Assembly: GCA_012840395.1 (NCBI GenBank)
Contig: DULL01000070.1
Location: forward strand, 1-47,173
DNA: 47,173 nucleotides
DNA from: Clostridiaceae bacterium
GTDB lineage: Bacteria; Bacillota; Clostridia; Acetivibrionales; DULL01
Direction: 5' to 3'
The stretch's first letter is position 1, and each line of letters opens with the position of its first letter. Below the pieces are notes generated by a model. The model did not search any database, was not told where the DNA came from, and saw only the letters and a list, made by a program, of their open reading frames with translations. The translations under genes and the position numbers were made by a program. Positions 12,492 through 30,311 of the stretch are shown in pieces.

Positions 12492-13378
12492 AAAGGCCTG
12501 TAATAATAGATACTCCAGCAAATATTGGCGTATTTTTTGCTTTAGCTTATTCTTCAAAACAGTTTGATATCCGTTTTTTATCAGCATGCTCTTATGGTAA
12601 TGCAATACAGTTGTGTTCAGCCAGAGATATGCTTGAAATGAATATTCCGGTCTATACCGGAGCGGTTAAGCCAATAATACGTGATGTAACCAGCCCCTGG
12701 AGAGGTCCGAAGGGTGACCGTGATTTTTCTGGATTGTTTTTTCAATCAGAATCAATGTATCCTCCTGAAAGCGGGTATGTCTGGGACGCAATAATGAATG
12801 AGGCTAAAAAACAAGAAGGAGCTCTCGAAATAATTACTTTAGGGAGCCTGACAAACATTGCTATTGCATTGTTAAAATATCCTGCTTTAGAGAAGCTTAT
12901 TTCGAAGATAACAATAATGGGAGGCGCACGCTTTTGCGGCAATTGCCCTGATGCTCCTCAGTCTGAGTTCAATTTCTACTACGATCCGGAAGCTGCCCAT
13001 ATAGTTATAGATAGTGGTATTCCAATTCTTATTGCAGATATAAATACCTGTATAGGTGTTGAATGGAACTGGGAGGATATAAATCAACTCTTTGCAGCTG
13101 TTCCCAGGATCGAATATATGAAATCATATATTTTCCGTAAATATGGATATTGCTGTTCACTTAACGAGCTGGTGGCTGTAGCACTTGCAGACAGTTATTC
13201 TGAAGCTAAAACAATGAATTTGGTTGCCAATGTGGAAACAGATTCACAAATTGCCAGGGGAAAACTTGTACTTGAACATGATACTGTGGCAATGGGATTA
13301 GAACCTAATGCTACTTTATTTAGCTCACTGGATGAGGAAAGTTTAAAGAAAAGAATAATAAGTGTGCTTAATAATTAA
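12488..13378 (+). CDS. Nucleoside-hydrolase-fold protein lacking catalytic motifs (probable pseudoenzyme)
   Basis: This 296-residue protein keeps the overall family fold: TLGSLTNIAIAL, IMGGARF and NFYYDPEAAHIV align with the active paralogue upstream. The N-terminal Asp cluster is replaced: IIDTPANIGVFFAL lacks the second, third and fourth Asp and is two residues shorter. The C-terminal HDAL is LNEL. These residues bind the Ca ion and ribose in the family, so hydrolysis is unlikely. The reading frame is intact, and the start overlaps the stop of the active enzyme (ATGA), so the two are coupled. It may be a partner or regulatory subunit of the upstream enzyme; that is inference. Confidence 0.82.
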   Translation: MKRPVIIDTPANIGVFFALAYSSKQFDIRFLSACSYGNAIQLCSARDMLEMNIPVYTGAVKPIIRDVTSPWRGPKGDRDFSGLFFQSESMYPPESGYVWDAIMNEAKKQEGALEIITLGSLTNIAIALLKYPALEKLISKITIMGGARFCGNCPDAPQSEFNFYYDPEAAHIVIDSGIPILIADINTCIGVEWNWEDINQLFAAVPRIEYMKSYIFRKYGYCCSLNELVAVALADSYSEAKTMNLVANVETDSQIARGKLVLEHDTVAMGLEPNATLFSSLDEESLKKRIISVLNN

Positions 13379-13400
13379 TTTTTCCGGGGATGATGTGAAA

Positions 13401-14687
13401 ATGAAACTAAATAAAGAAGCACAGGAATTAAATGAAATCTTTCAGGAAAGTCCTGAAGTATATGAGATGCTTTCTGACTTTGGCAAACGTATTTATTTTT
13501 TAGAAAGTGGCGTACTTGCCCAGTCCTGGGAAGCAAGAGAAAAGGCATTCCGGTTTAATGCTACACTTGGAGAAGCCCAGTCAAACAGGGAAACAATCTA
13601 TTCAAGAACTTTTCACGATGCTTTTTTGGGATTTGCTCCAAATGAAGTATATCCTTACGCACCGCCTGCCGGTCTGAAAGAGCTTCGTCAGCTATGGCTG
13701 GAAAAAATGCTTCGAGAAAATCCTTTGTTCGAATATATTAATATTTCACTACCAGTTGTTACAACCGGTGTTACCCATGGGCTTTCTCTGGCGGCAGACC
13801 TTTTTCTTAATCCGGGGGATAGGGTGGTGGTTCACGATAAACACTGGGAGAACTATGAATTAATTTTTGAAGTGCGAAATTCAGCAATCATTGAGACTTA
13901 CCCAATGTTTGTAAATAATAGTTTTAATGTTTCCGGATTGGAGAACTGCATAAATGCATGCCAGTCAGACAAGGTCTTCGTTATATTAAACTTCCCCAAT
14001 AATCCTACGGGATATACCCCTGCCATGAAAGAGGCAGAGGAAATAGCAGCCGCATTGGTACGCTGTGCCGAAGCGGGAAAGAAAATTGTTGCACTATGCG
14101 ATGATACCTATTATGGATTATGGTATAATGATGAGGTTATTCATGAATCTATCTTTGGCCTTATAGCCGGGTCTCATCCTTCAATTTTAGCCATCAGGCT
14201 GGACGGGGCTACAAAGGAGCATTTTGCCGGTGGATTCAGGGTGGGATTTATAACTTTCGGAGGAAAATCTGGAGAAGTGCTTACAGCATTGGAAAAGAAG
14301 GCTATAGGGACCATCCGGGCAAGCATATCCAGTAGTTCCCGTACATCACAGGCAATTTTGTTTAAGATACTCAGTGACAGTAAATATACCCAGGAGTTAA
14401 TGGAAGGCAGGCAGTTGCTTTGTGAGAGAGGGAAGGAGGTTATGGAGCTTATTAAGAAAGGAAGCAGTAAAAACCTCTGGAATGCTTATCCGTTTAATTC
14501 GGGATATTTTGTATGTATTAAGGTATCGAAAAATGCAAGAAGAGTCCGTGACTATTTGCTTTCGCAATATGGAATAGGAGTAATAGCAATTTCTGATGAG
14601 GATATCAGGATTTCAGTCCCCTGTATTGAAATAAATGAAATCAGAGAGTTATTCAGCATATTGGATGAAGCCATAGAAAGTGCTTAG
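13401..14687 (+). CDS. PLP-dependent class I/II aminotransferase
   Basis: This roughly 428-residue fold-type I enzyme has LNFPNNPTGYTP near residue 195, CDDTYYGL near 235 for the PLP-pyridine Asp and Tyr, and RLDGATKEHFAGGFRVGF near 265 with the Schiff-base Lys in ATK. Arg near the C-terminus (DIRISVP) fits substrate-carboxylate binding. Start ATG 13401 is chosen with GGGGATGAT upstream; GTG 13395, two codons earlier, is equally close. It follows the degenerate hydrolase by 22 bp and is probably in the same operon. Why an aminotransferase accompanies nucleoside hydrolysis is not clear; amino-acid or amino-sugar substrates are possible. Confidence 0.85.
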   Translation: MKLNKEAQELNEIFQESPEVYEMLSDFGKRIYFLESGVLAQSWEAREKAFRFNATLGEAQSNRETIYSRTFHDAFLGFAPNEVYPYAPPAGLKELRQLWLEKMLRENPLFEYINISLPVVTTGVTHGLSLAADLFLNPGDRVVVHDKHWENYELIFEVRNSAIIETYPMFVNNSFNVSGLENCINACQSDKVFVILNFPNNPTGYTPAMKEAEEIAAALVRCAEAGKKIVALCDDTYYGLWYNDEVIHESIFGLIAGSHPSILAIRLDGATKEHFAGGFRVGFITFGGKSGEVLTALEKKAIGTIRASISSSSRTSQAILFKILSDSKYTQELMEGRQLLCERGKEVMELIKKGSSKNLWNAYPFNSGYFVCIKVSKNARRVRDYLLSQYGIGVIAISDEDIRISVPCIEINEIRELFSILDEAIESA

Positions 14688-14748
14688 TATAATGTAGAAA
14701 ATACATAGTACAATGTGGAAAATGCATAGAACTACGTGTAGGATTCAT
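14686..14748. repeat. Three 21-bp tandem repeats after the aminotransferase gene
   Basis: Units start at 14686, 14707 and 14728 with consensus close to AGTACAATGTGGAAAATGCAT. The first unit includes the stop codon region of the aminotransferase gene. Units differ at several positions, so the array is not very recent. Confidence 0.75.
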
Positions 14749-14757
14749 AGAACAAAC

Positions 14758-14869
14758 ACTTGCAGCATGAAGTAAAAACTCGCAACATAAAATTAATACT
14801 TGCAACATAAAACCAATACTTGCAACATTAAACCAATACTCGCATATGTTTATACTTGCATATGATTAG
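14758..14869. repeat. Six tandem repeats of about 20 bp before the DUF401 gene
   Basis: Consensus ACTTGCAACATAAAACCAAT. Four near-full units start at 14758, 14778, 14798 and 14818, followed by two shortened units at 14838 and 14854. Units are directly adjacent with no unique spacers. The array ends just before the ribosome site of the transporter gene at 14887. Confidence 0.8.
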
Positions 14870-14886
14870 CAGAGGGGGTAGTAAAT

Positions 14887-16113
14887 TTGTGGCAATTTGT
14901 AGCTGTTATAGTTACATTTCTGATGCTTCCGGTGCTTACTAAAAAATTTAAACTGAACCTGACTTTATCTTTGATAATATGTAGCCTTGGGATTCACCTG
15001 CTAGTTTTTCGTTCATTGAAAGTTCTATATACCGTTATACTCAATACACTTTCTTTTACAACAATCAACGTGGTATTAACTATTTTTTTAATCAGCATCC
15101 TTAGCAATTTAATGAAGCATTATGGTTTATTGGATGATATAGTTACTTCGCTTAAGAGCCTTTTTAAAAGCCGAAGACTGCTAATTGGAGCAATTCCTTT
15201 GGTTATAGGCATGCTCTCAGTTCCAGGGGGTGCATATCTGTCTGCACCATTTGTGGATGATTTAGGTAAAGATATGAATATTGCACCGGAAAAGCGGGCA
15301 GTAATTAATCTGACTTTCCGTCATATAGCAATGCTGATAAATCCTTTTTCTACACCCCTGCTTTATATTGCTGCAAGTGTACCGGATTTAAGCATCTATA
15401 AACTTATTTTGCTTAATATTCCTCTTGCGCTGGTAATTATGGCAGGATCAGTAAAATTATATATGCCTGGTCCAAGATCTTTCACAGATGATAAACCCAA
15501 TGAATATTCAAAAAGAGAAAACATAAGAAGGTTATTATTAGGGATTTCTCCGATAGTTATTGCCATATTGTTTAACGGAATACTTAGAATCCCTATGTCA
15601 GCAGCAATAGCAATTAGTATATTATGGGTCTGGATTATCTGCCCTAAAAAAGACTTTATTGATGCTATCAGGAAAGGTTTAAATTTTGATTTGCCTGTAA
15701 TGATACTGGTGGTTTTCTTTATTCAGAATACCATTTTACAGATGACCGATATAATGGATACTTTCAAGATTATGTTTGAAAGCCCTTCTACAATAGTAAT
15801 TTTGTTAGCATTATTGTTGGGTTGTTTCTTTATTGGAACTGTTACAGGGTTAAACCTGGCGGTACTTGGTGTATTCATTCCTATTATACTTTCACTGCCA
15901 CTGACGACCTCAGAGCTTTGGTTGTTTGTTTTCTTCCTGAATATTTGGTCATTTTTAGGTTATTATTACTCTCCGCTTCATTTGTGCCAGATACTTACAA
16001 TAAAATACATAGATGTGCCAACCTTAAGTGTATATAAACAACATATAAAGCTATTTCCATGGCTTGCGGCAGTTTCCTTCATACTTTATTATCTTTACAG
16101 CTTATTGTTATAA
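14887..16113 (+). CDS. DUF401-family integral membrane permease
   Basis: This roughly 408-residue, very hydrophobic protein has about ten to twelve membrane segments and the family hallmark LSVPGGAYLSAPFVDDLG near residues 108-125 with NLTFRHIAMLINPFSTPLL following, as in DUF401 proteins related to citrate/gluconate-type anion permeases. TTG 14887 is the start: AGAGGGGG at 14871-14878 lies 8 nt upstream. It lies between the aminotransferase and the second pair of nucleoside hydrolases. Transport of an organic acid or of a nucleoside breakdown product is possible; the substrate cannot be told from sequence. Confidence 0.78.
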   Translation: MWQFVAVIVTFLMLPVLTKKFKLNLTLSLIICSLGIHLLVFRSLKVLYTVILNTLSFTTINVVLTIFLISILSNLMKHYGLLDDIVTSLKSLFKSRRLLIGAIPLVIGMLSVPGGAYLSAPFVDDLGKDMNIAPEKRAVINLTFRHIAMLINPFSTPLLYIAASVPDLSIYKLILLNIPLALVIMAGSVKLYMPGPRSFTDDKPNEYSKRENIRRLLLGISPIVIAILFNGILRIPMSAAIAISILWVWIICPKKDFIDAIRKGLNFDLPVMILVVFFIQNTILQMTDIMDTFKIMFESPSTIVILLALLLGCFFIGTVTGLNLAVLGVFIPIILSLPLTTSELWLFVFFLNIWSFLGYYYSPLHLCQILTIKYIDVPTLSVYKQHIKLFPWLAAVSFILYYLYSLLL

Positions 16114-16202
16114 CAGTTTGATCATATAGGTTGAATATATTTATCATTTGTTTACTATTTATCTACTTTGCTTATTTTCTTTTTGTTTTGGGAGGGTTCT
16201 AT

Positions 16203-17210
16203 ATGTCAGTTAAGAAAAAAGTTATTCTGGATGTAGATACCGGTAGTGATGATGCAGTTGCCATAATGTCTGCAGTACTTTGTGAAGAACTTGAAGTCTT
16301 AGGTATTATTGCCACTTTTGGTAATCAGCCCTTGAAATATACTTTACCCAATACCCTCAGAGTTGTAGAATTTCTAAAATGTAATGTTCCGGTTTACAGG
16401 GGTTTTGGAGTCCCCATTGCAAAGGATCTCACGCCCAGCAGGAATAAGAATGTAAATACAGATTATACTGTTCTGGAAAGGGTTGTTAATGGAAAAGTAT
16501 TAGCAATACATGAAAAAGAACTGCCTCTGCCCGGACCAACGATAGCGGAGCAACCGGAGCATGCTGTTACCTGGTTACTTAGGACTCTAAAAGAAACAAA
16601 GGAAAAAATTACACTTATTCCTGTTGGGCCTATGACAAATGTTGCCACTGTCCTGCGTATGGATCCTTCGGCTGCAGAAAACATTGAGGAGATTGTTGCT
16701 ATGGGGGGAGGAGTATATGTCCATAATATAACACCCTGTGCTGAAATTAACTTCTACAATGACCCTGAAGCTGCAAAGATAGTTTTAAATTCGGGTGTTC
16801 CCGTAACTTTGGTTACTTTGGATGCAACTCATAGCTCCTGGTTTGGCTATGAGGAGGCAGACCAAATTGCGGCCGTAGGGACTCCTGCGGCAGAATTTGC
16901 AGCAAATCTCTTACGTCACCGTATTTCATCTGCAAATAGGCTTGGAATCCGCAAAGAACAGAAAAGCGCCTTACATGATGTATTGGCTGTATGCAGTGTA
17001 ATTGATAAATCAATTCTAACTGATCTGAGACATGAAAAATGTGATGTTGACATTGGGGGAAATTATGCGGATGGCGCTTTGATAGTTGACCGCCGTCCTG
17101 TGGCCAGGCTTGATTTACCTACATATATTGCTTATAAGGCTGATAAAGATAAACTGTTATCTATGCTTTGCAGGCACCTTTCCAATATGAAAGCCCAGGA
17201 GGATATATGA
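16203..17210 (+). CDS. Nucleoside hydrolase (third family member), motifs intact
   Basis: This 335-residue enzyme starts MSVKKKVILDVDTGSDDAVAIM with the full Asp cluster, contains VAMGGGVYVHN, NFYNDPEAA and SALHDVLAV with the His-Asp pair. Start ATG 16203 follows GGGAGGGTT; the frame extends upstream to a TTG at 16131 encoding a hydrophobic stretch, but no ribosome site supports that longer form. It is closely related to the next gene, sharing the long conserved segments SGVPVTLVTLDATHSSWFGY and TDLRHE, so the two arose by duplication. It would cleave ribonucleosides, perhaps with a different base preference from the enzyme at 11556. Confidence 0.9.
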   Translation: MSVKKKVILDVDTGSDDAVAIMSAVLCEELEVLGIIATFGNQPLKYTLPNTLRVVEFLKCNVPVYRGFGVPIAKDLTPSRNKNVNTDYTVLERVVNGKVLAIHEKELPLPGPTIAEQPEHAVTWLLRTLKETKEKITLIPVGPMTNVATVLRMDPSAAENIEEIVAMGGGVYVHNITPCAEINFYNDPEAAKIVLNSGVPVTLVTLDATHSSWFGYEEADQIAAVGTPAAEFAANLLRHRISSANRLGIRKEQKSALHDVLAVCSVIDKSILTDLRHEKCDVDIGGNYADGALIVDRRPVARLDLPTYIAYKADKDKLLSMLCRHLSNMKAQEDI

Positions 17211-17286
17211 AAGCCTAGAAGGTTAATATGAAACCCAGAAGGATATATGAAATTCCAGAAGGTAATATGAAACTCAGGAGGAAAAC
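17187..17286 (+). repeat. Five tandem 19-21-bp units, each with a Shine-Dalgarno-like site and ATGAAA
   Basis: Units begin at 17187, 17207, 17228, 17247 and 17267, each ATGAAA followed by a C-rich stretch and AGGAGG or AGAAGG. The first two overlap the 3' end and stop codon of the upstream hydrolase. The last AGGAGG is 24 nt before the start of the next gene. The array apparently grew by repeated copying of an intercistronic ribosome-site segment. Confidence 0.8.
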
Positions 17287-17302
17287 TAAGGGGAAATGTA
17301 AA

Positions 17303-18292
17303 ATGAAGAAGCGTAAAGTAATTCTGGATGTTGATACAGGCAGTGACGACGCAGTTGCAATAATGTCGGCATTATTATGCGAGGAACTGGAGGTTTTGGG
17401 GATTACCACAGTTCATGGAAATCTTCCATTACAGTATACTCTTGAAAATACTCTTCGAGTTGTAGAATTCTTAAAGTCAAATGTACCTGTTTTTGCCGGA
17501 TGCCCTTATCCCTTAGTCCAAGATCTTATTCCGGGACGCTTGTATAATACGGATGAGATAAAAAAAGAATGTATAATTGATGGAAAGGTTGTGGCGGTTC
17601 ATGAAAAGGAACTGCCGCTGCCTAAGGCAACTATAAAACCGCAAAAAGAGCATGCCTGTTCCTGGATTCTACGTACTCTAAAGGAAAGTAAAGAAAATAT
17701 TACTCTGATTCCGGTGGGAGCTATGACTAATATTGCGACGGTGCTGCGCATGGACCCGTCAGTGTCGGAGCGTATTGAGGAGATTATCTGTATGGGTGGG
17801 GGTGTAAATGTACATAACAGGTCTTTCCGCTCGGAAACCAATTTTTTCAACGATCCTGAGGCAGCAAAGATTATGCTAGATTCGGGAATTAAGACGGTTA
17901 TAGTGACCCTTGATGCAACTCATAGCTCATGGTTCGGTTATGAAGAGGTTGAAAAATTACGTGAAATTAATAATCCAGCTGCTAATTTTGCGGCAGACAT
18001 GCTTTATCACCGTATTTATGCGGCAAATCTTACAGGGGCGCGCAAAGAACCAAAAAGTGCATTGCATGATGTGCTGGCTGTGTGTGCTGCAATTGATATA
18101 AGTATATTAACGGATTTGCGACATGAAACCTGTGATATCGATATAGCGGGGGGAGTATCAACAGGAGCTTTAATGGTATCATCACGGTATAAGTACAGCA
18201 AACCCGAAAAACCTACCTGGGTAGCTTATGGCGCCGATGGAGAAAAGCTGTTTTCTATGTTGTGCTCGCATTTGAAGAGATTTAAAGGATAG
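17303..18292 (+). CDS. Nucleoside hydrolase (fourth family member), motifs intact
   Basis: This 329-residue paralogue of the preceding gene starts MKKRKVILDVDTGSDDAVAI, with MGGGVNVHN, NFFNDPEAA and SALHDVLAV, so all metal and catalytic positions are present. Start ATG 17303 has AAGGGGA 8 nt upstream; an in-frame ATG at 17228 lies inside the tandem repeat and would only add repeat-encoded residues. It is about 90 bp from its neighbour and on the same strand. Retention of two active near-duplicates suggests divergence in nucleoside preference; that is inference. Confidence 0.9.
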   Translation: MKKRKVILDVDTGSDDAVAIMSALLCEELEVLGITTVHGNLPLQYTLENTLRVVEFLKSNVPVFAGCPYPLVQDLIPGRLYNTDEIKKECIIDGKVVAVHEKELPLPKATIKPQKEHACSWILRTLKESKENITLIPVGAMTNIATVLRMDPSVSERIEEIICMGGGVNVHNRSFRSETNFFNDPEAAKIMLDSGIKTVIVTLDATHSSWFGYEEVEKLREINNPAANFAADMLYHRIYAANLTGARKEPKSALHDVLAVCAAIDISILTDLRHETCDIDIAGGVSTGALMVSSRYKYSKPEKPTWVAYGADGEKLFSMLCSHLKRFKG

Positions 18293-18358: not shown

Positions 18359-18551
18359 GCTTGGCTTTGCTTAACTTGGTTTTCTTTTATAGTGCCAGGT
18401 CCTTTTTATTTTTGTCTTTATATAAAATTAAGATTTTTTTTGAATTCATGAACTGTTACTTTTAGATTTATAAGCCGATATATTTTATAGAAAAAAGCTA
18501 AGGTTGATTATCCCTAATATAGTCATATCTTTGAAAGGAACCGTTAGTGAG

Positions 18552-19838
18552 ATGGAGAATAAAACTCTGTTGAATGAACTTAGTGATTTAACAGTTAAAA
18601 TAAGCAATGATGTCGGTAAAGAATTCTTGCTTTCTGGCGAACAATTATTTTCTAATGTAAGAGATAGATTCTTAGAATTCAGCAGAGAAACAATGTACAC
18701 CATCAGACAGTTTGAAGAAAGCGTGCGGGAATCTGTTAATGCCTTGCAGATAGTGTCAGCTGAGGTGGAGAAATTCAAGAATAATGTTAATGAAATAATC
18801 AGAAATATTGGAAACAGAAATTTAGAAAGTAGGGATGTAGAAAGCAGGGAAATAGAAAACAGTTATTTTAAAAGCGGAGATGTAGAATACGGAAAAGTAA
18901 ATAACAGGGATATAGGCAAGGATCTATTTGGAAACAAAGATTTAGTAGGGAACAAGAATTTAGCAGGAAACAGGGATTTAGTAGGAAACAGGGATTTGGA
19001 AAACAAAAATGCTGAAAACAGGAATGCAGGAGACACGAAAGCAGAAGACTGGAATTCAGGAAACAGGAATTTAGAAATCAGAAATACAGGAAACAGGAAT
19101 ATAGAAGCTGCAAGTATAAAAAACATTAACATTGAAAAAAGAAACATTGATAATAGAATTGATAATAGAACTATTGAAAATAGTGATGCCATATTAATTT
19201 ATAATTCTGGAACCATTTCTGAGGATACCGGCCTTGATATTGTTGATTTGATGAGCGGATTAATGAAAAAAGCTGAATTTCTTGATAAAAAAGCCACGGA
19301 TTTGGAAAGCAATTCAAAAGAGCTATGGAACAAAGCAAATAAGTTCATGGAAGTGTTTATAAGGCAGAAAAACCAGTTTTATACCGTAGTTAATAATATG
19401 AATAAAAAACTTCCGGATGTGGCAAAGGAAGTTAATAAGATGAATGAACAGCTAAATAGAATATATAAAAATTCATTTTCTATTTTGGAAAGCCTTGAGA
19501 ATAACGACAGAATAATAAAAAATATTAAAACACTGCTAAATGATTCAGTTGAGAAAATGACTCTTTTCCTTCCTCAGAATATAAAATATCGGAAAAACCT
19601 ATCTTATAAAACTGAAGCAGAAAGTGAAGAATATTTCAATATAGCTGATAGTAAAATTACCGATATAAAAGATTTAAGCATGCTTAATTTGAAAGACTTA
19701 AGTACGATAAAAATGAAAAATTACACAGAAGAGTTTTCAAATCAAGAAAAGAAAGTACGTAAGAAGCTTATATTATTGTATATAATTTATATTCTGGCAT
19801 TTGCTATTCTTTGTGTTCTTTTGTTGAACAAGTCATGA
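18552..19838 (+). CDS. Coiled-coil, C-terminally membrane-anchored protein with pentapeptide-period repeats
   Basis: This 428-residue protein was not assigned to a known family. Residues 1-85 and about 225-385 are predicted coiled-coil-like helices rich in Lys, Glu and Asn. Between them (about 87-215) lies a low-complexity tract of roughly 24 five- or six-residue units of the form N-R/K-N/D-L/I/V-E/G. The last 22 residues (LILLYIIYILAFAILCVLLL) form a single membrane anchor, so most of the protein would face the cytoplasm. ATG 18552 follows AAAGGAA; TTG 18504 is an upstream alternative. It stands alone between the nucleoside genes and a gene remnant. A structural or scaffold role is possible. 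Confidence 0.75.
   Translation: MENKTLLNELSDLTVKISNDVGKEFLLSGEQLFSNVRDRFLEFSRETMYTIRQFEESVRESVNALQIVSAEVEKFKNNVNEIIRNIGNRNLESRDVESREIENSYFKSGDVEYGKVNNRDIGKDLFGNKDLVGNKNLAGNRDLVGNRDLENKNAENRNAGDTKAEDWNSGNRNLEIRNTGNRNIEAASIKNINIEKRNIDNRIDNRTIENSDAILIYNSGTISEDTGLDIVDLMSGLMKKAEFLDKKATDLESNSKELWNKANKFMEVFIRQKNQFYTVVNNMNKKLPDVAKEVNKMNEQLNRIYKNSFSILESLENNDRIIKNIKTLLNDSVEKMTLFLPQNIKYRKNLSYKTEAESEEYFNIADSKITDIKDLSMLNLKDLSTIKMKNYTEEFSNQEKKVRKKLILLYIIYILAFAILCVLLLNKS
18810..19185 (+). repeat. Degenerate 15-18-bp tandem repeats inside the coiled-coil protein gene
   Basis: Units resemble GGAAACAGGGATTTAGTA or the 15-bp form GAAAACAGGAATGCA. Both lengths are multiples of three, so the frame is kept through about 24 copies. 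The clearest run is 18928-19000, where four 18-bp copies are nearly identical; flanking copies are more diverged, suggesting recent expansion at the centre. Confidence 0.75.
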
Positions 19839-21572: not shown

Positions 21573-22454
21573 ATGAAAGTAGAAATTGCAACATGTCCAT
21601 GTTCGTGGGGAGTCTTCTGGCCTGACGGTTCTCCATCCGGTGTTCCATACAATGTTTTCCTTGATCAAGCAGCAGAAGCCGGATATATAGGCATTGAGCT
21701 TGGCCCGGTAGGTTATTTGCCTACTGACCCAAAGATACTGAAATATGAACTGTCAAGTAGAGGGCTTATAGCACGAGCAGGAACTGCGTGTTATAAAATT
21801 GATGAGATGAGAAGTTTTGAAGATGTTAGGGATGCAGCTATTGATCTGTGCGCGAGGCTTAAAGCCTTTGATGTTAAGTACCTTGTAATGATGGATGAGT
21901 CTCCATTAGGAAGAGATCCTCAGCGAAAAAAAGAAGCTGATCCTGAAAGAATACTAAAGAACTATAATATAATTGGCGAATATGTTAAGTTTGCCAAAGA
22001 TAATTATGATGTAACAGTTGTATATCATCCACATGCCCGTTCTATTGTAGAAACAGAAGAAGAAATCTTAAAATTAATGGATATTACAGGATGTATGCTT
22101 TGTTTTGATACTGGACATCACCAGCTCGTAAATGGAAAGCCGGAAAAAGGCGACCGCTGTGCAATTGACTTTTTCTTAAAATACCACGAAAGAATTCCGT
22201 TTTTACATTTTAAAAATGTAAATGGGGAAGCCATGAAGGAAAGACTTGTTAATCCGGCATCAAAGATTCAAGCTTTTTGCCCGCTGGAGGAAGGTATTAT
22301 AGATTTTGTGGATTTTAAAAAGGCTCTTGAAAGTGTGAATTTTAATGGCATTGGTGTAGTTGAACAAGATATGGCTCATGCTCCTGCTGAAGAAAGCCTA
22401 AAGTTGTCTAAGAAAAATAGAGAGTTTTTAATGAGAGTGGGTATAGTTAAATAG
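21573..22454 (+). CDS. iolE: IolE-like sugar isomerase/dehydratase (TIM barrel)
   Basis: This 293-residue protein begins with the IolE-type signature ATCPCSWGVFWPDG (residues 6-19) and is a xylose-isomerase-like TIM barrel: YHPHARSIVE, CFDTGHHQ and LHFKNV are metal and substrate segments and VVEQDM near the C-terminus supplies a metal-ligand Glu. IolE dehydrates 2-keto-myo-inositol to the trihydroxycyclohexane-dione acted on by IolD, which is encoded at 43891. Start ATG 21573 follows GAGGGGG. The enzyme is far from the other iol genes but shares regulatory motifs with their operon. A related sugar-epimerase role is possible. Confidence 0.8.
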   Translation: MKVEIATCPCSWGVFWPDGSPSGVPYNVFLDQAAEAGYIGIELGPVGYLPTDPKILKYELSSRGLIARAGTACYKIDEMRSFEDVRDAAIDLCARLKAFDVKYLVMMDESPLGRDPQRKKEADPERILKNYNIIGEYVKFAKDNYDVTVVYHPHARSIVETEEEILKLMDITGCMLCFDTGHHQLVNGKPEKGDRCAIDFFLKYHERIPFLHFKNVNGEAMKERLVNPASKIQAFCPLEEGIIDFVDFKKALESVNFNGIGVVEQDMAHAPAEESLKLSKKNREFLMRVGIVK

Positions 22455-22464
22455 TTTATAGTAT

Positions 22465-24255
22465 TTATGATAATTTCTCATTTTTGCCTTTATCAATTGG
22501 AAGGTTGATAAGTACTTCGGTTCCGACGTTAGGCGTACTCTTAATATGGATACAATATTGATAGCCATATAAAAGTTGTAGCCGCTTACTTATATTGTTT
22601 AGGGCTATATGTGTATGCTTAGCGTCGGTACTTCTATTCTGTTTTCTGTAAGATGAAATTTCTTTAATGTTTTCTACCAAGAAACCTATCCCGTTATCTA
22701 CCACTTTTATGTAAACCTCATCTATTTCTTCCCAAATCATAATTGAAACTTGTCCTTCATCTCTCTTTTTCTCCAGACCATGTATTATACTATTTTCAAC
22801 AATTGGTTGTATAATTAAGGGGGGAATATAATATTGTAGGATTTCATCGCTTTCTATTGATATTTGATAGTTTAAACGATTTCCGAAGCGTATTTTTTGC
22901 AGTTTAAGATAAAAGGAAACATACTCTAGTTCTTCTTTGATAAGTATTTTATTTCTGCCGCTAAAATTATTTGATGCAAAGATCAGCATTTGAAGATTAT
23001 CTATAATGTTTTTCAATCCTAAATATTTCTTTTTATCAATCATGGAACTAATTGCTTTTAATACATCACATATAAAATCCCAGTCTAGTTGATTTTGAAG
23101 AAGAGAGATTTGTGATTCATTATTTTTTAATCTTTTTTCATAAACTTCATATATAAGAAGTTCAAGTTTGTCAGCCATTTTATTATAGGCTATTGATAGT
23201 TCGTTGAATTCATTATAATGCTTTGGTGGCATGCGTACAGAAAAATTACTTTTTGTACATTGGTTTAGACTAAAAATTAAATTGCTTAGTGGAATAGTTA
23301 TTATTTTAGAAAAGAATATTCCAATAAAAACACCTAAAAAACATATAACTATAATAAAACTGTAAAATAGAGCAATTGTGCGGTTATAATTATGAAAGAT
23401 TATATTCTTGCTAGCTACAAGTGTAACTGACAAATTCATTTTAGGTATTTGCTCTGTTATGATAATATAGTTTTCATCAATTGGCTGATAATCTTGTAAA
23501 TTTAATAAAAACTTGCCATCAAATACATAATTCGAATTAGATTCCATAGGTGCATTACTGAAAAAAAATGATTTATTTGTTGAGTCATAAAGATAAAGAT
23601 GATAGTTATTGAATTCTTGTGAATTATTTGAAAAGTTTAGTAGTGCATGGGGATTCATTTTTATAATTATCTTTCCATGTTTTTTAAAATCACTTATATT
23701 AACTAGATCGTGAATAAAGTACAGGTATTTGCTATTATTAGGAGATACGATATGATAAACGTCTTTTGAGTCTTTATACTGAGAGTAAATATTTTTATAA
23801 TCATCGCTAATAGGTGAATAATTATCATATCCTAAGACAGATACGTATTCGTCCTCATTAACAAATACAAAGGCTCCATTAATAAAGTGATTCTCAAAGG
23901 AGACGTTTTTATTAACGTTATTCAAAATAAAATTCCTCGTAGAAGTCAAATCCTCAGATGTAATAAGACCTCCAGAACTAAGTTTTTCTATGACTTCATT
24001 TGATGAATGCAGAACATATATAATATTAAAAGCATCTTCAAAGCGTCCTTTGATGTGTTCTGAATAATTGGCCATATAAAAAACTGCATTCTCATATAAA
24101 CTTGCTTCAAAATGTTTTCGAAATAAAAATTTAAAGAAGATAAAAGAAGTAAAGATAGGAATAATAATAGATAAAATAATAAGAATACATAATGCAGTAC
24201 GTATAGATATTTGATAATTTTTATTTAAGGATATTTTCTTTGCTGCATTGAACAT
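22465..24255 (-). CDS. YesM-like histidine kinase lacking the phosphoacceptor His (ATPase intact)
   Basis: This 596-residue membrane protein has TM1 near 19-43, an extracellular sensor to about 290, TM2 near 295-318 and HAMP. Where family members read NPHFLYN it reads DWDFICD (391-397): Asp393 replaces the His that is phosphorylated. The ATP-binding domain is complete: N-box LIIQPIVENSIIHG (Asn488, His492), G-box VVDNGIGF (Asp520) and GTEVLINLP at the end. It could bind and use ATP but not phosphorylate itself on the usual His. Start ATG 24255 has AAGGAG 8 nt upstream, 15 bp after the response regulator. The kinase upstream in this operon has the opposite defect. Confidence 0.9.
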   Translation of the reverse strand: MFNAAKKISLNKNYQISIRTALCILIILSIIIPIFTSFIFFKFLFRKHFEASLYENAVFYMANYSEHIKGRFEDAFNIIYVLHSSNEVIEKLSSGGLITSEDLTSTRNFILNNVNKNVSFENHFINGAFVFVNEDEYVSVLGYDNYSPISDDYKNIYSQYKDSKDVYHIVSPNNSKYLYFIHDLVNISDFKKHGKIIIKMNPHALLNFSNNSQEFNNYHLYLYDSTNKSFFFSNAPMESNSNYVFDGKFLLNLQDYQPIDENYIIITEQIPKMNLSVTLVASKNIIFHNYNRTIALFYSFIIVICFLGVFIGIFFSKIITIPLSNLIFSLNQCTKSNFSVRMPPKHYNEFNELSIAYNKMADKLELLIYEVYEKRLKNNESQISLLQNQLDWDFICDVLKAISSMIDKKKYLGLKNIIDNLQMLIFASNNFSGRNKILIKEELEYVSFYLKLQKIRFGNRLNYQISIESDEILQYYIPPLIIQPIVENSIIHGLEKKRDEGQVSIMIWEEIDEVYIKVVDNGIGFLVENIKEISSYRKQNRSTDAKHTHIALNNISKRLQLLYGYQYCIHIKSTPNVGTEVLINLPIDKGKNEKLS

Positions 24256-24270
24256 GAATGATACTCCTTG

Positions 24271-25860
24271 TTATGCGTTATTTCGGTATTCTTTAGGTGT
24301 TAAGCCTGTATGGTTTTTAAAGATTTTTGAAAAATATACTGGATCACTTATTCCAACTTTTTCAGCTATTTCATATGTTTTCATATTCGTTTTTTTAAGT
24401 AGTGCTTTTGCCTTTTCAAGTCTCATTGTCTGAATAAAATATGATAAATTGTAACCGGTTTCTTTTTTATAAATACGGCTCAAATGACCGCTGGATACAT
24501 GTACTTTGGATGCAAGTTTTTCAAGAGACAAATCTTCAGATAGATGGCTTTTTATGTAAATTTCTATTTCTTGAATTATTTTTAGCTTGTTAGTACTTTG
24601 GTTATTAATATCCGAGAAGATATTTTTTATCATTTGTATGATTATTTTCTCGATTTTTTCTGGGCTATTGCTGAACAAAATTTCATGTAGGTGATGATCT
24701 TTTTGTAGTTCTATATATTTATCAAAAAAGCCATGATCCCAATATTTACTTACACATAGACTGCTGATAAAAAAAGCAATCTCATGAATGGTATTTAGGG
24801 GATATTTATTAACTACAGCCGTTCTAAATATGATATTTATTAGTTTTATTGTAGCGTCATAATCATGATCATCAAGTTTGTTTCTTAATTCACTAAGCGA
24901 ATCATTTATGTCTTCAAGACCTGAGGGCTTAAGCTGTTCAAGCTGAGAGTAACGAATAATATTTGCCATAGAAAGATGCTGTGAATATTGAAAGGCAGCA
25001 ACTACTTCTTTTTTGGCTTGAGTTATTTCAGATAAATGTTCATGAATGTTGCTTATTGCTACAGTCACTGAAAAATCAGAAAGATTGTAAACCATCTGTG
25101 ATAACTCTGAACATCGATTTAAAATAATATCAAAAAAATTGCTACTTGCATTGTCTGCTGGAATTATAAGATAGAGAGTCATTTTTATTCCATGGACTAA
25201 TTTTATAGGATTTAAGTCATTAAAAGATGCATCTGCAAAACTCTTTAGTTTATCAATTATTTCGAGTGGAGGACTTTCACCTTTATCTTCAATAATACTA
25301 TTTATTGCAACAAGGCAAAATCGATTAAAGGTAAAGCCTAATTTTGAAATTTTTTTTGAAATTTGATCTTGGGATATGTCATCACTATCAAATAGTTCAT
25401 GTAAAAAAATTTTTTGTTGCAATCTAGTTGTTTGCATGCTAAAAGATTTTAATCTTGAATACTCTTCTTGGCTTGTTTTTTCTTTAGAGATTTGGTATTG
25501 GATTTTTTGTATTGTCTCTATGATTTTTTGTGGAGATACAGGCTTTAGTAGATAGTCAGAAACATGCAAATCCAGAGCTTGTCTAACATATTCAAATTCT
25601 TGGTAGACAGTCAGAAGTATGACTTTGATTTGTGGGTAGCGAAATGCTAATTCTTTGCATAATTCCAGCCCATCCATACCTGGCATACGAATATCGGTAA
25701 TAACGACATCAGGGTAATTATCAGGTGTTATTTGTTCAAGAGCTTCAATTCCATCAGAAGCAACACCAAAAATGTTACAATTAATTGAAGACCAATCGAT
25801 ACATTGACATAGTCCTTTCCGGATTGCTTTTTCATCATCAACAATCATTACATTAAGCAA
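24271..25860 (-). CDS. YesN-type response regulator (REC plus AraC-type HTH)
   Basis: This 529-residue regulator has an intact receiver: VDDE at 7-10, phosphoacceptor Asp in VVITDIRMPGMDG near 55 and Lys in SDYLLKPV near 104. A roughly 270-residue linker precedes a C-terminal AraC-type DNA-binding domain (LEKLASKVHVSSGHLSRIYK, then AEKVGISDPVYFSKIFKNHT). TTG 25860 is the start because GGAGGG lies 8 nt upstream; it overlaps the stop of the upstream kinase by 8 bp. It lies between two kinases with complementary defects and is the only regulator in the operon, so it is their likely common target. Confidence 0.92.
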   Translation of the reverse strand: MLNVMIVDDEKAIRKGLCQCIDWSSINCNIFGVASDGIEALEQITPDNYPDVVITDIRMPGMDGLELCKELAFRYPQIKVILLTVYQEFEYVRQALDLHVSDYLLKPVSPQKIIETIQKIQYQISKEKTSQEEYSRLKSFSMQTTRLQQKIFLHELFDSDDISQDQISKKISKLGFTFNRFCLVAINSIIEDKGESPPLEIIDKLKSFADASFNDLNPIKLVHGIKMTLYLIIPADNASSNFFDIILNRCSELSQMVYNLSDFSVTVAISNIHEHLSEITQAKKEVVAAFQYSQHLSMANIIRYSQLEQLKPSGLEDINDSLSELRNKLDDHDYDATIKLINIIFRTAVVNKYPLNTIHEIAFFISSLCVSKYWDHGFFDKYIELQKDHHLHEILFSNSPEKIEKIIIQMIKNIFSDINNQSTNKLKIIQEIEIYIKSHLSEDLSLEKLASKVHVSSGHLSRIYKKETGYNLSYFIQTMRLEKAKALLKKTNMKTYEIAEKVGISDPVYFSKIFKNHTGLTPKEYRNNA

Positions 25861-27619
25861 TTATATTTCCCTCCGTTTCTTTTTTAATATTACTCAATGT
25901 TATTAAAAAATCGAAGGCTGATTGCGAAATCTGTTTAATCTGAAGTTTTGAATTTTCTCCCTCAAGTTTCTTTAAGTGCTCAATTACCTTATATACTTTA
26001 TATTGATTCTCTTCATGGATATTTGTATTTAATTGCATGGTTTCGCAAATAGGGTATACTTTGCCAGTTATACTGATATATATGTTATCTAGTTTGTGAT
26101 TGATAGAGATATTGAGTTTGCAAGTATATTGTTTTGGTACAACTTTGATAAAGGTTACAACAAGTGTTTTAAGCCAAAATTTTGGTATTTTGATGTGCTG
26201 CAGTTTGTCATAATCAAGTGTAGAGATCGTACACTGAAGCCGGTCCTTCATAATATATTGTTGTAAATCTATATAAAGTTTGATTTGTTCTAATTCATCC
26301 TTTAAATTTGATTCTTTTTGCAAGTAAATTAAGGAATTTCGAATTAAATTGGCCAGCTCCCCTATTATTTTTATTAAAGTTTTATCTCCAGTTTCATGTA
26401 CTTGCCAATGAATTATGTCAAGTATGTTGAAAAGAAAGTGAGGATCAACTTGTGAATGCAGTAAATCAAGCTCTGCCTGTTGATTTAGGATTTTAAGTTC
26501 GTATACTTCATTCACCAGTTTATTTATTTGAAGCGACATATTATTATAAGTGGAATATAAAGTATTAATCTCATTGAAATATCCATATTCATTCTTGTGA
26601 TCGTCAGATGAGGTATTCACAGTAAATGTAGACATTTCTTTTATTAGATTATTTAACGGGTTAAAGAAGTTTTTTAAAATTCTTAGTGTTATTAGTATAG
26701 ACATGACCATTATGACGGCAGAAATAATAAAAAAAATCATTAATATTTCATTATATTGACCATATATACTTTTAGTATCTATTAATATGAGACACTTTAG
26801 GCTATATGCGCCTAAATCTTTTGAAAATGCATAATATTTCCCACTTTGTGTGTGTATAAGCTCAAATGAATAATTCTTAGTATATTCAATATTTTTCAAC
26901 ACATTTTCATTTTTTAGTTCGGCTTGATTTGAAAAGAAAATATCTCCTTTAGAATTATATATTAAAATTTTCGTATCGGAATAAAGTGATTTAAGACTGT
27001 CAGATTTCAAAAGTAAAGAAGGGTCAATCTCTATTATTATTTTACCATAAGGTTTATATACGTATATATTTGAGAGTGTAGATATGTAATAGGCATAATC
27101 ACTTTTATCAGGAATAATTAAATCTGCAAAATCGACTTTGCTGCCGTATTTTACGTATATATTTTTGTTCCTTTCAATGGTATTTTGATAGTAGCTTTCT
27201 CGTAAGACTGAAGAGTATATATCCTCATCAAAAAAGAGGAAAATAGATTTTATAAATTTTTGTTGCCAGGTTTGTTCAAATAGAATAGAACGGCTGATAA
27301 AAAAATCGATATTAGCTAGATCAGTGGGAGTAGGATATAAATTTTTATTAATTTTATCTGCAATTTCTTTTGACATTAGTATTTGATATACTATGTCTTT
27401 AATGGCATTAAAACATGAATTTACATCATATACAAATTTATTTATGTATAAATTGATATTTTCATAACTCTGCTTTATAACATTATTAACAATGAAGTTC
27501 TTATAAAAGGCAGATAACAAAATTTCAGATATTATAACAAGTAGTATTATTGAAAACATTACAGTAAAACGAAAAGACTTAAAATGAGTTACTTTTAGTA
27601 TTTTCATTAAAACAAGCAC
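25853..27619 (-). CDS. YesM-like histidine kinase with His box but degenerate ATPase domain
   Basis: This protein of up to 588 residues has TM1 near 19-38, a sensor to about 290, TM2 near 292-313 and HAMP. The H-box is well conserved, HSQVDPHFLFNILDIIHW (His394). The ATPase domain is degenerate: the N-box position reads IPKFWLKTLVVTFIKVVP with Val488/Thr489 in place of Glu-Asn, no DNGxG G-box is found (ISITGKVYP in its place), and the C-terminal glycine-rich loop is absent. It should not bind ATP. The frame is open throughout, so the changes are not from frameshifts. GTG 27619 is very close to AAGGAG; ATG 27607 is the alternative start. It is first in a three-gene operon with the regulator and the His-less kinase. 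Confidence 0.9.
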   Translation of the reverse strand: MLVLMKILKVTHFKSFRFTVMFSIILLVIISEILLSAFYKNFIVNNVIKQSYENINLYINKFVYDVNSCFNAIKDIVYQILMSKEIADKINKNLYPTPTDLANIDFFISRSILFEQTWQQKFIKSIFLFFDEDIYSSVLRESYYQNTIERNKNIYVKYGSKVDFADLIIPDKSDYAYYISTLSNIYVYKPYGKIIIEIDPSLLLKSDSLKSLYSDTKILIYNSKGDIFFSNQAELKNENVLKNIEYTKNYSFELIHTQSGKYYAFSKDLGAYSLKCLILIDTKSIYGQYNEILMIFFIISAVIMVMSILITLRILKNFFNPLNNLIKEMSTFTVNTSSDDHKNEYGYFNEINTLYSTYNNMSLQINKLVNEVYELKILNQQAELDLLHSQVDPHFLFNILDIIHWQVHETGDKTLIKIIGELANLIRNSLIYLQKESNLKDELEQIKLYIDLQQYIMKDRLQCTISTLDYDKLQHIKIPKFWLKTLVVTFIKVVPKQYTCKLNISINHKLDNIYISITGKVYPICETMQLNTNIHEENQYKVYKVIEHLKKLEGENSKLQIKQISQSAFDFLITLSNIKKETEGNIIA

Positions 27620-27757
27620 GACTCCTTTTTATTTAGTGCGAATCTGAATGTATTAGCTTGTTGAATGAATTTATCAGTTAAAAAAACAATTCATAATAAT
27701 AAATATATCATAAAATCAAGAAAGTAATTTAATAAAATATAAGTAGTCGAAAAACTA

Positions 27758-27787
27758 TTGACAAAGTATTGTTTGTATTATTATTAT
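27758..27787 (+). promoter_or_regulatory. Candidate sigma-A promoter of the ROK gene
   Basis: TTGACA (27758-27763) and TATTAT (27782-27787) are separated by 18 bp. The operator-like palindrome begins at the next base, consistent with autorepression. The divergent kinase operon starts about 140 bp to the left. Confidence 0.5.
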
Positions 27788-27803
27788 AATTATTATAATA
27801 ACA
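27788..27803. promoter_or_regulatory. Candidate ROK operator, site B (ROK gene)
   Basis: AATTATTATAATAACA matches the palindrome AATTATTATAATAATT at 14 of 16 positions. A weaker related sequence, AATATTATAATGTTAT, follows at about 27804. The site lies immediately downstream of the likely -10 and 77 bp before the ROK start, between the ROK gene and the divergent kinase operon. Confidence 0.5.
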
Positions 27804-27879
27804 AATATTATAATGTTATTCAATATTAATCTGGACTAAGTTGCGTTATTAGATATTAGATAAGAGTTCGTAGGTGTAA

Positions 27880-29049
27880 ATGATGCATATAGATAACTTA
27901 ATAGATATAAAATATAAAAATATAAAAAGTATTATTGATTATATACGGTTTAAGAAAAATTGTACAAAGAAAGAAATCTCAGATTCTTTGAAATTAAGTT
28001 TTGCAACTGTATCAAATATGATTAATCTTCTGATGAGTAAAGACCTAATTTCAAAAACAACAGTTGATAATTCAAGATCTGTAGGTCGCAATCCTAAAAA
28101 TTTTAATTTTAAGCCAGACAGATTTTGTATTATAACTATTGATCTTCACTTAGATGAGTATCTATCTATATGTCAAGTTGATCTTGCTCGAAAAATACTT
28201 GCCAGAGAAACATATGAGATAGGGTGCTACAACGATATCGGTCAGTTTATTCAAAAAGTTAAAAATATTTACAAGAATTTTGTTATTTCTACAAATATTG
28301 ACGCAGATTCAATCATTGGCTTCGGTATTATAATAAAAGGAATATATGATAATCAAACTGACTGTATGATAAGTTCAGAGAACAAAATTTTTATAGGACA
28401 ACCTCTGAGAAAATTACTGGGAGAAGCTTTGGAAAAGTTCGTTATAGTAGAGAATGATGCAAATATTGCAGCGCTTTTTTCAGCTATTTCTTCAGGTATT
28501 AGAGATTTAATGTATGTATATTTAGGTGAAGGACTGGGGTTTAGTGTAATTTCAGGAGGTAATATTTTAAGAGGGACGAGTGGATATTCTCCTGAAATTG
28601 ACCATATACCCATGGGCAGAATTAAAGTCAAGTGCCCTTACTGCGGCAATGATAATTGTCTGAGTACTGACTTATCTCAAAATGGGTTTTTAACAAAGTA
28701 CTATAAAAGTGATTTTTTATATAAAAAGACATATAAATTTGAATGGGAGGAATATATTAAGCAAATTCGCCTTGGTGATGCTCATGCCATTGATGTAGCA
28801 AATGAAAACGCAATTATTTTAGGAAAAAGTCTTGCAATAGCTACCTGTATTACATGGCCATCGAAGATTATTATAGGAGGTATTCCTCAGGAACTATACC
28901 TGATTATGAAACCTGTTATTGAAAATCAAATAAATTCCAGAAAACCTTTTGGAGATAACATAAATCTTTGTTTTGATCCTAATTGGCAAGATACTATTGC
29001 AAAAGGTGCAGCTGAGATTATATATTTAAACTGGCTACCAGATTTATAA
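27880..29049 (+). CDS. ROK-family transcriptional repressor
   Basis: This 389-residue protein has an N-terminal winged helix-turn-helix (KKEISDSLKLSFATVSNMIN near residues 28-47) followed by a ROK sugar-kinase-like fold: VENDANIAALF near 190 and the Zn-binding cluster VKCPYCGNDNC near 249. The kinase phosphate-binding motif at the start of the ROK domain is replaced (IDLHLDEY), so it is a regulator rather than a kinase, of the XylR/NagC type. It would release DNA when bound to its sugar ligand. It is divergent from the kinase operon and followed by the SIS operon; matching palindromes in four promoter regions suggest a local regulon. Confidence 0.9.
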   Translation: MMHIDNLIDIKYKNIKSIIDYIRFKKNCTKKEISDSLKLSFATVSNMINLLMSKDLISKTTVDNSRSVGRNPKNFNFKPDRFCIITIDLHLDEYLSICQVDLARKILARETYEIGCYNDIGQFIQKVKNIYKNFVISTNIDADSIIGFGIIIKGIYDNQTDCMISSENKIFIGQPLRKLLGEALEKFVIVENDANIAALFSAISSGIRDLMYVYLGEGLGFSVISGGNILRGTSGYSPEIDHIPMGRIKVKCPYCGNDNCLSTDLSQNGFLTKYYKSDFLYKKTYKFEWEEYIKQIRLGDAHAIDVANENAIILGKSLAIATCITWPSKIIIGGIPQELYLIMKPVIENQINSRKPFGDNINLCFDPNWQDTIAKGAAEIIYLNWLPDL

Positions 29050-29054
29050 ATTGA

Positions 29055-29101
29055 GGCGGAATATTACAAGTAAATAATATTTTTGAACTTTTTAATCCGC
29101 C
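29055..29101 (+). terminator. Possible terminator hairpin after the ROK gene
   Basis: GGCGGA (29055-29060) can pair with TCCGCC (29096-29101), enclosing a second AT-rich pairing AATATTA/TAATATT (29060-29066 with 29075-29081). No clear T-tract follows, so the function is uncertain. Confidence 0.35.
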
Positions 29102-29170
29102 ATAAATTTCCAGATAAGCAATTGAATATAATAATATTATATATTAATTGAAATACTCTTTATTGATGAC

Positions 29171-29186
29171 AATTATTATAATAATT
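29171..29186. promoter_or_regulatory. Candidate ROK operator, site C (SIS operon), perfect palindrome
   Basis: AATTATTATAATAATT is its own reverse complement over 16 bp. It lies about 50 bp before the SIS gene start and contains TATAAT, so it probably overlaps the promoter. It is the best match of four similar sites. Confidence 0.55.
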
Positions 29187-29234
29187 AAAATAATATTTAT
29201 AATAATTTTTATAATTTATTAAGGGGGAATATTG

Positions 29235-30311
29235 ATGGGAAATATGATGAGGGAATATATAAATGAGCAGCCGGATATACTGAAAAAAATAATGGAATCC
29301 AGTGAAGAAGGAATAAAGCTATTTCTTGATAAGTTCCGGGATTTTTCTATTGAGAGAATTTATTTATTTGGCTCAGGAAGTTCTTATAATGCTGCTTGTA
29401 TGGCTAAACCTTTCATGGAGCATGTTTTAAAGGTAGAAGTTACTCCTATGACACCAACACAGATTTATAATATTGACTGGATTAAAAAAAATAGAAGTAT
29501 TAGAATTGCCTTATCTCAATCAGGACGGAGTACAAATACGTTTTCGCTCGTTCAGATGCTGGAAAAAGATAATTATGGTGTTGTGAGTTTAACGGCAAAT
29601 CCTCAATCAGAAATTGCCAGATTGAGCAGTTTACATATAGAAATAAGTTGTGGCGAAGAAAAAGCTGGGCCAAAGACAAAAGGTGTTACAAGTACAGTTT
29701 TGATGCTGTATTTATTGACTATTAATCTTGCATATACAAAAAAGCTAATTAATATTGATGAATACAATTCATATTTAGACCTTTTTAAAAGGACCATATA
29801 TAATTTGCCTGATAATATCAATAGAAGCATATGTTGGTATAAAGCAAATAAAATTGAATTATCCAGAGCAAAATGTATATTTATTATTGCAAAGGATTTA
29901 TACTCCTCAGCGGCTTTAGAAGGTGCATTGAAACTTGATGAAACAATATATAAGCCTGTTTTTGCATATGAATTTGAAGAATTTATCCATGGAATAAATT
30001 GTTTGCTAGGTTCGGATAATAATATAATTTTTCTGATTTCTGGTGAAGATAATAATGAACGTATTTATAAATTATGCGACTTTTCAGAGAAACTTGGCGA
30101 TAAAGTATATATTATTTCTACAGAAGAGCAAAGCATAGTTTCTTCAAATAGATTACAACTGATGTCTGTACATAATAAATATATGGAACCTTTTGAATTT
30201 GTAATTCCAATGCAAGTGCTAAGTTCTTATTTATCAGAATATTTGGGAAATGATATTGACAAACCCAAATTCAAGAATTTCTCAGCCATCATGGAAAGTA
30301 AAATCCAATAA
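29235..30311 (+). CDS. Double SIS-domain sugar-phosphate isomerase/deaminase (GlmS C-domain-like)
   Basis: This roughly 358-residue protein has two sugar isomerase (SIS) domains as in the isomerase half of GlmS, AgaS and FrlB: FGSGSSYNAA near 40 and LSQSGRSTNT near 93 bind the sugar phosphate, and ALEGALKLDETIYKPVFAYE then EFIHG near 232-256 matches the GlmS C-terminal loop. There is no glutaminase domain, so it would act as a deaminase or deglycase on a phosphorylated amino sugar or amine conjugate. ATG 29235 is used because AAGGGGGA lies 6 nt upstream. It heads an operon ending with a BadF-type sugar kinase. Confidence 0.85.
   Translation: MGNMMREYINEQPDILKKIMESSEEGIKLFLDKFRDFSIERIYLFGSGSSYNAACMAKPFMEHVLKVEVTPMTPTQIYNIDWIKKNRSIRIALSQSGRSTNTFSLVQMLEKDNYGVVSLTANPQSEIARLSSLHIEISCGEEKAGPKTKGVTSTVLMLYLLTINLAYTKKLINIDEYNSYLDLFKRTIYNLPDNINRSICWYKANKIELSRAKCIFIIAKDLYSSAALEGALKLDETIYKPVFAYEFEEFIHGINCLLGSDNNIIFLISGEDNNERIYKLCDFSEKLGDKVYIISTEEQSIVSSNRLQLMSVHNKYMEPFEFVIPMQVLSSYLSEYLGNDIDKPKFKNFSAIMESKIQ

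Follow-up and report, generated by a model that had tools for sequence, protein, structure and literature searches.

A candidate split heterodimeric YesM-type histidine kinase, encoded by two incomplete and complementary kinases around one response regulator in a Clostridiaceae bacterium

We analysed positions 1 to 47,173 of contig DULL01000070.1 of the Clostridiaceae bacterium assembly GCA_012840395.1 (hereafter the window). Its minus strand carries an operon with the gene order HK2-RR-HK1. HK2 (27619-25853, 588 amino acids (aa)) and HK1 (24255-22465, 596 aa) are membrane histidine kinases (HKs) of the YesM/PF06580 type, and the gene between them (25860-24271, minus strand, 529 aa) encodes a single response regulator (RR) with a receiver domain and an AraC-type helix-turn-helix (HTH) domain. 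HK1 has lost its phosphoacceptor histidine and kept its ATP-binding (CA) domain, and HK2 has kept the histidine and lost the CA domain. The catalytic and phosphoacceptor functions were thus found on two co-encoded, incomplete proteins with one RR between them. With moderate confidence, we propose that the two proteins form a split heterodimeric kinase, in which the CA domain of HK1 phosphorylates His394 of HK2 in trans and drives one regulator. Both kinases presumably use that single RR.

In the H-box region, HK1 has LQNQLDWDFICDVL and the family has LQSQINPHFLYNTL. Following LQNQL, the destroyed H-box DWDFICD (residues 391-397, 23065..23085, minus strand) stands for NPHFLFN, with Asp391 at its start, Trp in place of Pro, Asp393 in place of His at the phosphoacceptor position, and Asp397 in place of Asn. 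Sequence inspection of residues 360-490 found no alternative histidine, and HK1 therefore lacks the phosphoacceptor of a YesM-type kinase. Its CA domain (residues 466-596, 22468..22860, minus strand) contains a standard N-box (QPIVENSIIHG, with the core VENSIIHG) and a standard G1 box (VVDNGIGF, with the core DNGIGF), and the G2 box (HIALNN) is also present, so that all of the ATP-binding motifs were found. It should be noted that Ala replaces Gly in this G2 box (THIALNN). The same swap occurs in eight otherwise intact YesM kinases out of 90 examined; it was therefore ruled out as a catalytic defect and regarded as a natural variant that does not count against HK1. The protein has two transmembrane helices, an extracellular sensor, a HAMP domain, a dimerisation and phosphoacceptor (DHp) domain and the CA domain. 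Pfam recognised both PF06580 (43.3 bits) and HATPase_c.

HK2 has a standard H-box, VDPHFLFNIL, including the phosphoacceptor His394 and Asn398 (DPHFLFN, residues 392-398, 26426..26446, minus strand). The ATP-binding motifs are missing: KTLVVTFIKVV stands in place of the N-box and TGKVYPI at the G1 position, and the G2 box is gone. This pseudo-CA domain (residues 466-588, 25856..26224, minus strand) retains a predicted GHKL-like secondary structure. It is preceded by two transmembrane helices, an extracellular Cache-like sensor, a HAMP domain and the H-box, and the sensors of HK1 and HK2 were both Cache-related by profile and by fold. Pfam detected PF06580 in HK2 with 67.7 bits and did not detect HATPase_c. 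We dropped this miss as sole proof of the loss, because an intact kinase at 6040-7845 also escapes the Pfam HATPase_c model, and used profiles built from 87 relatives instead.

The three genes are tightly packed. The RR starts at a TTG codon that overlaps HK2 by 8 bp, with GGAGG within the 3' end of HK2, and HK1 starts 15 bp past the RR stop codon, preceded by AAGGAG. The start of HK2 is uncertain, being either a GTG at 27619 or an ATG four codons later. The RR is intact according to its receiver Asp (DVVITDIRMPG), its Lys (LLKP) and its Pfam domains. A preliminary description of this DNA had reported a complete ATP-binding domain with Asp393 for the phosphoacceptor histidine in HK1, a kept His box with VVTFIKVV as N-box and no DNGxG in HK2, and one operon overlapping or closely spaced around an intact AraC-type regulator. 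These motifs, positions and the layout were all confirmed by our analysis, with the addition that HK2 has lost its G2 box as well.

The reciprocal losses were quantified with cross-validated hidden Markov model profiles of the DHp and CA domains, built from a control set of 87 other YesM-type kinases from relatives and GTDB contigs. In the DHp profile, controls scored 117.8 ± 11.1 bits (minimum 85.0). HK1 scored 68.7 bits, under all 87, and HK2 scored 86.3 bits, at the low edge of normal with one control lower. In the CA profile, controls scored 119.0 ± 10.7 bits (minimum 83.8). HK1 reached 125.4 bits and exceeded 64 of the 87 controls, and HK2, with 10.7 bits, was by far the lowest. The difference between the DHp and CA scores ranged from -25 to +31 in the controls and was -57 for HK1 and +76 for HK2. 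Analysed by region, the H-box core of HK1 had a mean log-odds of -0.84 versus a control minimum of 2.27, and the rest of its DHp domain fell within the control range, which a continuing need for the dimerisation helices would predict. In HK2, the N-box, G1, G2 and the last strands were each below every control. The retained halves, the HK1 CA domain and the HK2 DHp domain, were 43% and 41% identical to a functional relative, respectively, comparable to two functional relatives compared with each other (39% for CA and 44% for DHp), and the HK2 CA domain was only 17-19% identical.

Such losses are exceptional among related kinases. Neither the phosphoacceptor His nor the N-box Asn was missing from any of the 87 controls, and G1 deviated in one of them (locus L131). 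Because this set had partly been collected by an H-box pattern, a second control was obtained by a family search for PF06580 in 14 further genomes, which gave 256 hits. The lowest score among its kinases of at least 500 aa was 59.3 bits, versus 48.7 bits for HK1, and the two lowest-scoring kinases were intact. The source genome itself encodes 13 PF06580 proteins, of which HK1 and HK2 score lowest; the other 11 all carry intact H, N, G1 and G2 motifs. That the two exceptional kinases share an operon and are defective in opposite halves cannot be attributed to chance.

AlphaFold2 predictions of the single chains agreed with this picture. The GHKL-like arrangement of the HK1 CA domain was well modelled (pLDDT mostly 84-96). 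The preliminary description had suggested an alignment to YesM-family structures, and the HK1 core did fit the kinase core of the YesM-type GanS (6swk; TM-score 0.82, root-mean-square deviation (rmsd) 2.9), but HK2 fitted poorly (TM-score 0.64, rmsd 6.9), with a poorly modelled GHKL-like arrangement and no lid helix.

Within the order, the best homologues of HK1 and of HK2 were the same genes, all of them single complete kinases with an RR directly after them (two sites in genome G034 and one each in G016, G017, G023 and G026). In a tree based on the sensor halves, HK1 and HK2 were sisters with support of 91/88, a grouping to be read with long-branch caution, and adjoined that group of homologues. 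A related genome carries an HK-RR-HK locus (L154:2351-7928, contig G044:C94) with two intact kinases that are 92.6% identical over 583 aa, indicating a recent duplication across one regulator, so that the supposed starting geometry exists. Duplication followed by reciprocal loss fits the origin of HK1 and HK2 best. An ancestral complete kinase in an HK-RR operon would have given rise, by duplication, to a second copy beyond the RR gene. The HK2 copy would then have retained the phosphoacceptor in its DHp domain while its ATP-binding domain decayed, and the HK1 copy would have retained its ATP-binding domain and lost its H-box. In the proposed mechanism, the two membrane proteins would pair via their DHp helices, the HK1 CA domain would bind ATP, and His394 of HK2 would be phosphorylated in trans. 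The phosphoryl group would pass from HK2 to the RR, which HK2 may also dephosphorylate, and the RR would probably switch nearby genes for carbohydrate uptake or catabolism.

As a rule, histidine kinases form homodimers. To our knowledge, there are very few natural cases of the enzyme being divided between two paralogous membrane kinases. FasB/FasC-FasA of Streptococcus pyogenes likewise comprises two kinase-like membrane proteins and one RR in one operon, with FasB giving the kinase domain and FasC the phospho-His. Two-hybrid data support FasB/FasC heterodimers and not homodimers, H246 of FasC is required, the FasC kinase domain was dispensable by deletion, FasC was proposed to be a pseudokinase, and the FasB transmembrane region was also dispensable (PMC12675982). 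By description, the systems differ in that the FasB histidine is still a possible acceptor, whereas both losses are visible in the sequences of HK1 and HK2, and in that FasA acts at a ComE-like site, whereas the RR here has an AraC-type HTH.

Biochemical proof of principle comes from CheA3/CheA4-CheY6 of Rhodobacter sphaeroides, where neither protein labels alone and the mixture does, and 1.7% of HisKA proteins were counted as possible split bifunctional kinases (PMC3591291). CheA3 and CheA4 also carry the catalytic and phosphoacceptor halves on separate proteins. However, they are chemotaxis CheA proteins that lack whole domains and belong to a cytoplasmic cluster, whereas HK1 and HK2 are transmembrane proteins whose domains are present but mutated; the CheA domain set, the lack of a transmembrane sensor and the CheY regulator were not found in HK1, HK2 and their AraC-type RR. 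Hik36/Hik43 (PilL-N/PilL-C) of Synechocystis is a kinase divided over two genes as well (PMC7656254), but it represents a CheA-like gene split end to end rather than two degenerate paralogues. The closest relatives, the YesM-type HK/AraC-type RR pairs of GanS and of the homologue sites above, share the domain order, sensor type and AraC-type RR, but they are single complete kinases, whereas HK1 is without phosphoacceptor and HK2 without ATP site. Pseudokinases such as DivL, RetS and ChrS_CA-fs (PMC9491836) are kinase-like proteins that have lost or bypassed catalytic features and act on another kinase. They modulate a complete kinase, however, and the HK1/HK2 operon has none. The preliminary description had called the pattern unusual, which is true within this order, although the principle of split or heterodimeric kinases was already known. 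Our literature search turned up no split pair of YesM-type kinases, but it covered few subscription papers, so that this absence carries little weight.

The assembly is a draft in 119 pieces, and an assembly or frameshift artefact might conceal intact motifs. However, no other reading frame of the HK1 and HK2 segments scored against the DHp or CA profile, and codon usage was alike along both genes. A frameshift or hidden motif behind the losses was therefore rejected, and we consider an artefact extremely improbable. Decay of both duplicates, in which drift would have removed one essential part from each and the RR would now be independent of them or driven by cross-talk, appears unlikely. It would agree with the fast evolution of HK2 throughout and with the lack of an orthologous pair to indicate selection on the two genes. 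On the other hand, each protein retains precisely the half missing from the other at the level of a functional kinase, the damage to HK1 is limited to the H-box, and all three frames are open at full length, including the 123 codons of the degenerate HK2 CA domain, for which base composition predicts an open frame with a probability of about 3e-5, although translational coupling to the RR start within the 3' end of HK2 could alone keep that frame open. It is similarly unlikely that HK2 receives its phosphate from another complete YesM kinase and that HK1 is a titrating or inhibiting regulatory pseudokinase comparable to RetS/GacS or DivL. The genome offers 11 other intact YesM kinases, His-less accessory kinase-like proteins recur beside a complete kinase in related bacteria, and regulatory heterodimers have a precedent in RetS-GacS (PMC12675982). 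However, HK1 has kept an ordinary CA domain that would be needless for pure titration, and it is both the operon partner and the nearest in-genome relative of HK2, the other 11 being more distant by score.

Several observations weigh against the split heterodimer. The sensor, DHp tail and CA domain of HK2 evolve fast, which relaxed constraint fits too, and long branches meet where HK1 joins HK2 in the sensor-half tree. No orthologous split pair was found: searches with HK1 and HK2 in the order, the class and GTDB contigs gave intact singles only, among genomes that included no second one of the same genus or family. GTDB contigs were searched with HK1 and with a subfamily alignment, and 80 loci from the latter were screened; an alignment of the sensors alone varied too much to serve as a query. 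The two closely spaced HK genes in each of the loci L063 and L101 were rejected as split-pair candidates since they lie on opposite strands. Furthermore, if autophosphorylation in this kinase family is in cis only, complementary halves would be unworkable, and the sources found on YesM kinases and on 6SWJ/GanS settled neither cis nor trans.

Both HK1 and HK2 kept the full set of transmembrane helices, sensor and HAMP domain, suggesting that both inputs matter. If both ectodomains matter, two sensors would control the output jointly, possibly through a strict AND gate. The preliminary description had gone further, proposing an obligate heterodimer with a logical AND of two ligands. The complementary losses are now supported quantitatively and a trans heterodimer is the most economical explanation, with FasB/FasC as precedent, but the obligate and AND parts did not stand equally well, since sensors of one subfamily could share a ligand and one may suffice. 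An obligate YesM-family heterodimeric receptor kinase in which two distinct extracellular sensors must cooperate for one output is thus a tentative suggestion. About as tentatively, only one sensor may bind a signal, and the split may serve a sharper or phosphatase-biased response, with free HK2 as phosphatase; this refines the split heterodimer and overlaps with it in confidence. In favour of it, the H-box of HK2 still has His394 and Asn398, the theory developed for CheA3/CheA4 predicts ultrasensitivity if the free acceptor is a phosphatase (PMC3591291), and the transmembrane region of one FasBC partner is dispensable, but the complete sensory modules in both proteins speak against it.

Other incomplete YesM-type kinases were noted in related bacteria. 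A recurring operon encodes a sensor-less kinase-like protein of 190-209 aa directly before a complete YesM-type kinase of about 500 aa. In these small proteins the N-box and DNGxGF are kept, the H-box position lacks His, and G2 is degenerate. They form one family with 30-36% identity, and the member in genome G111 scored 203.7 bits versus 122.9 bits for the next-best ordinary kinase. An AraC-type RR is the next gene in L149:2173-5911, L150:2213-5980 and L152:2786-6472, and the G111 operon is L159 (G111:C124:13969-16039). At L151:11721-15517 (G044:C32), an intact kinase and RR occur with a small partner (183 aa) that has also lost the ATP motifs. At L153:5916-7225 (G043:C78), a YesM-type kinase is broken in the DHp region into a 262-aa frame with sensor and H-box and a 174-aa CA frame, with a TGA inside according to the family search; the gene may be truly broken, the kinase may be physically split, or the break may be an error of sequencing. 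The control with a deviant G1 (NSGKDM for DNGxGM; L131:7019-8842) is a YesM-type kinase that stands alone next to an ABC sugar transporter, with no partner kinase nearby, and its ATP site is possibly impaired.

In the window, a sugar-isomerase-like TIM barrel gene converges on the operon and a ROK regulator diverges from it; after the ROK regulator come SIS and 2-hydroxyacid dehydrogenase genes and further catabolic genes. The intergenic region between HK2 and the ROK regulator (27620..27879, no strand) is the likely site of the operon promoter. It gave only consensus-level matches, and a promoter scan of this region found none tellingly better than in shuffled sequence. The GC content was 26-30% across the HK2-RR-HK1 region (22001-30000) and 32-42% in the remaining window; the cassette may thus have been acquired or have drifted. 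Elsewhere, an open reading frame of 444 aa (18504-19838) has a repetitive middle rich in Asn, Asp and Arg (NRDL/ENRN-like repeats), a C-terminal hydrophobic segment and no Pfam match. Four inosine-uridine nucleoside hydrolase-like genes cluster at 11556-18292, of which those at 11556 and 12488 were assigned by Pfam, whereas only sequence resemblance points to those at 16131 and 17228.

The arrangement of HK1 and HK2 is rare yet has precedent, the best such case, FasBC, having been described only in 2025, and it probably works only as a mixed pair. If such an obligate pair works at all, trans phosphorylation would have to be possible in the YesM family. Since both losses can be read from the sequences and a relative has a plausible starting state, HK1 and HK2 provide a clean test case for the route by which duplicated sensor kinases may come to depend on each other, for trans action of YesM-type kinases, and for the joining of two inputs at the receptor rather than downstream.

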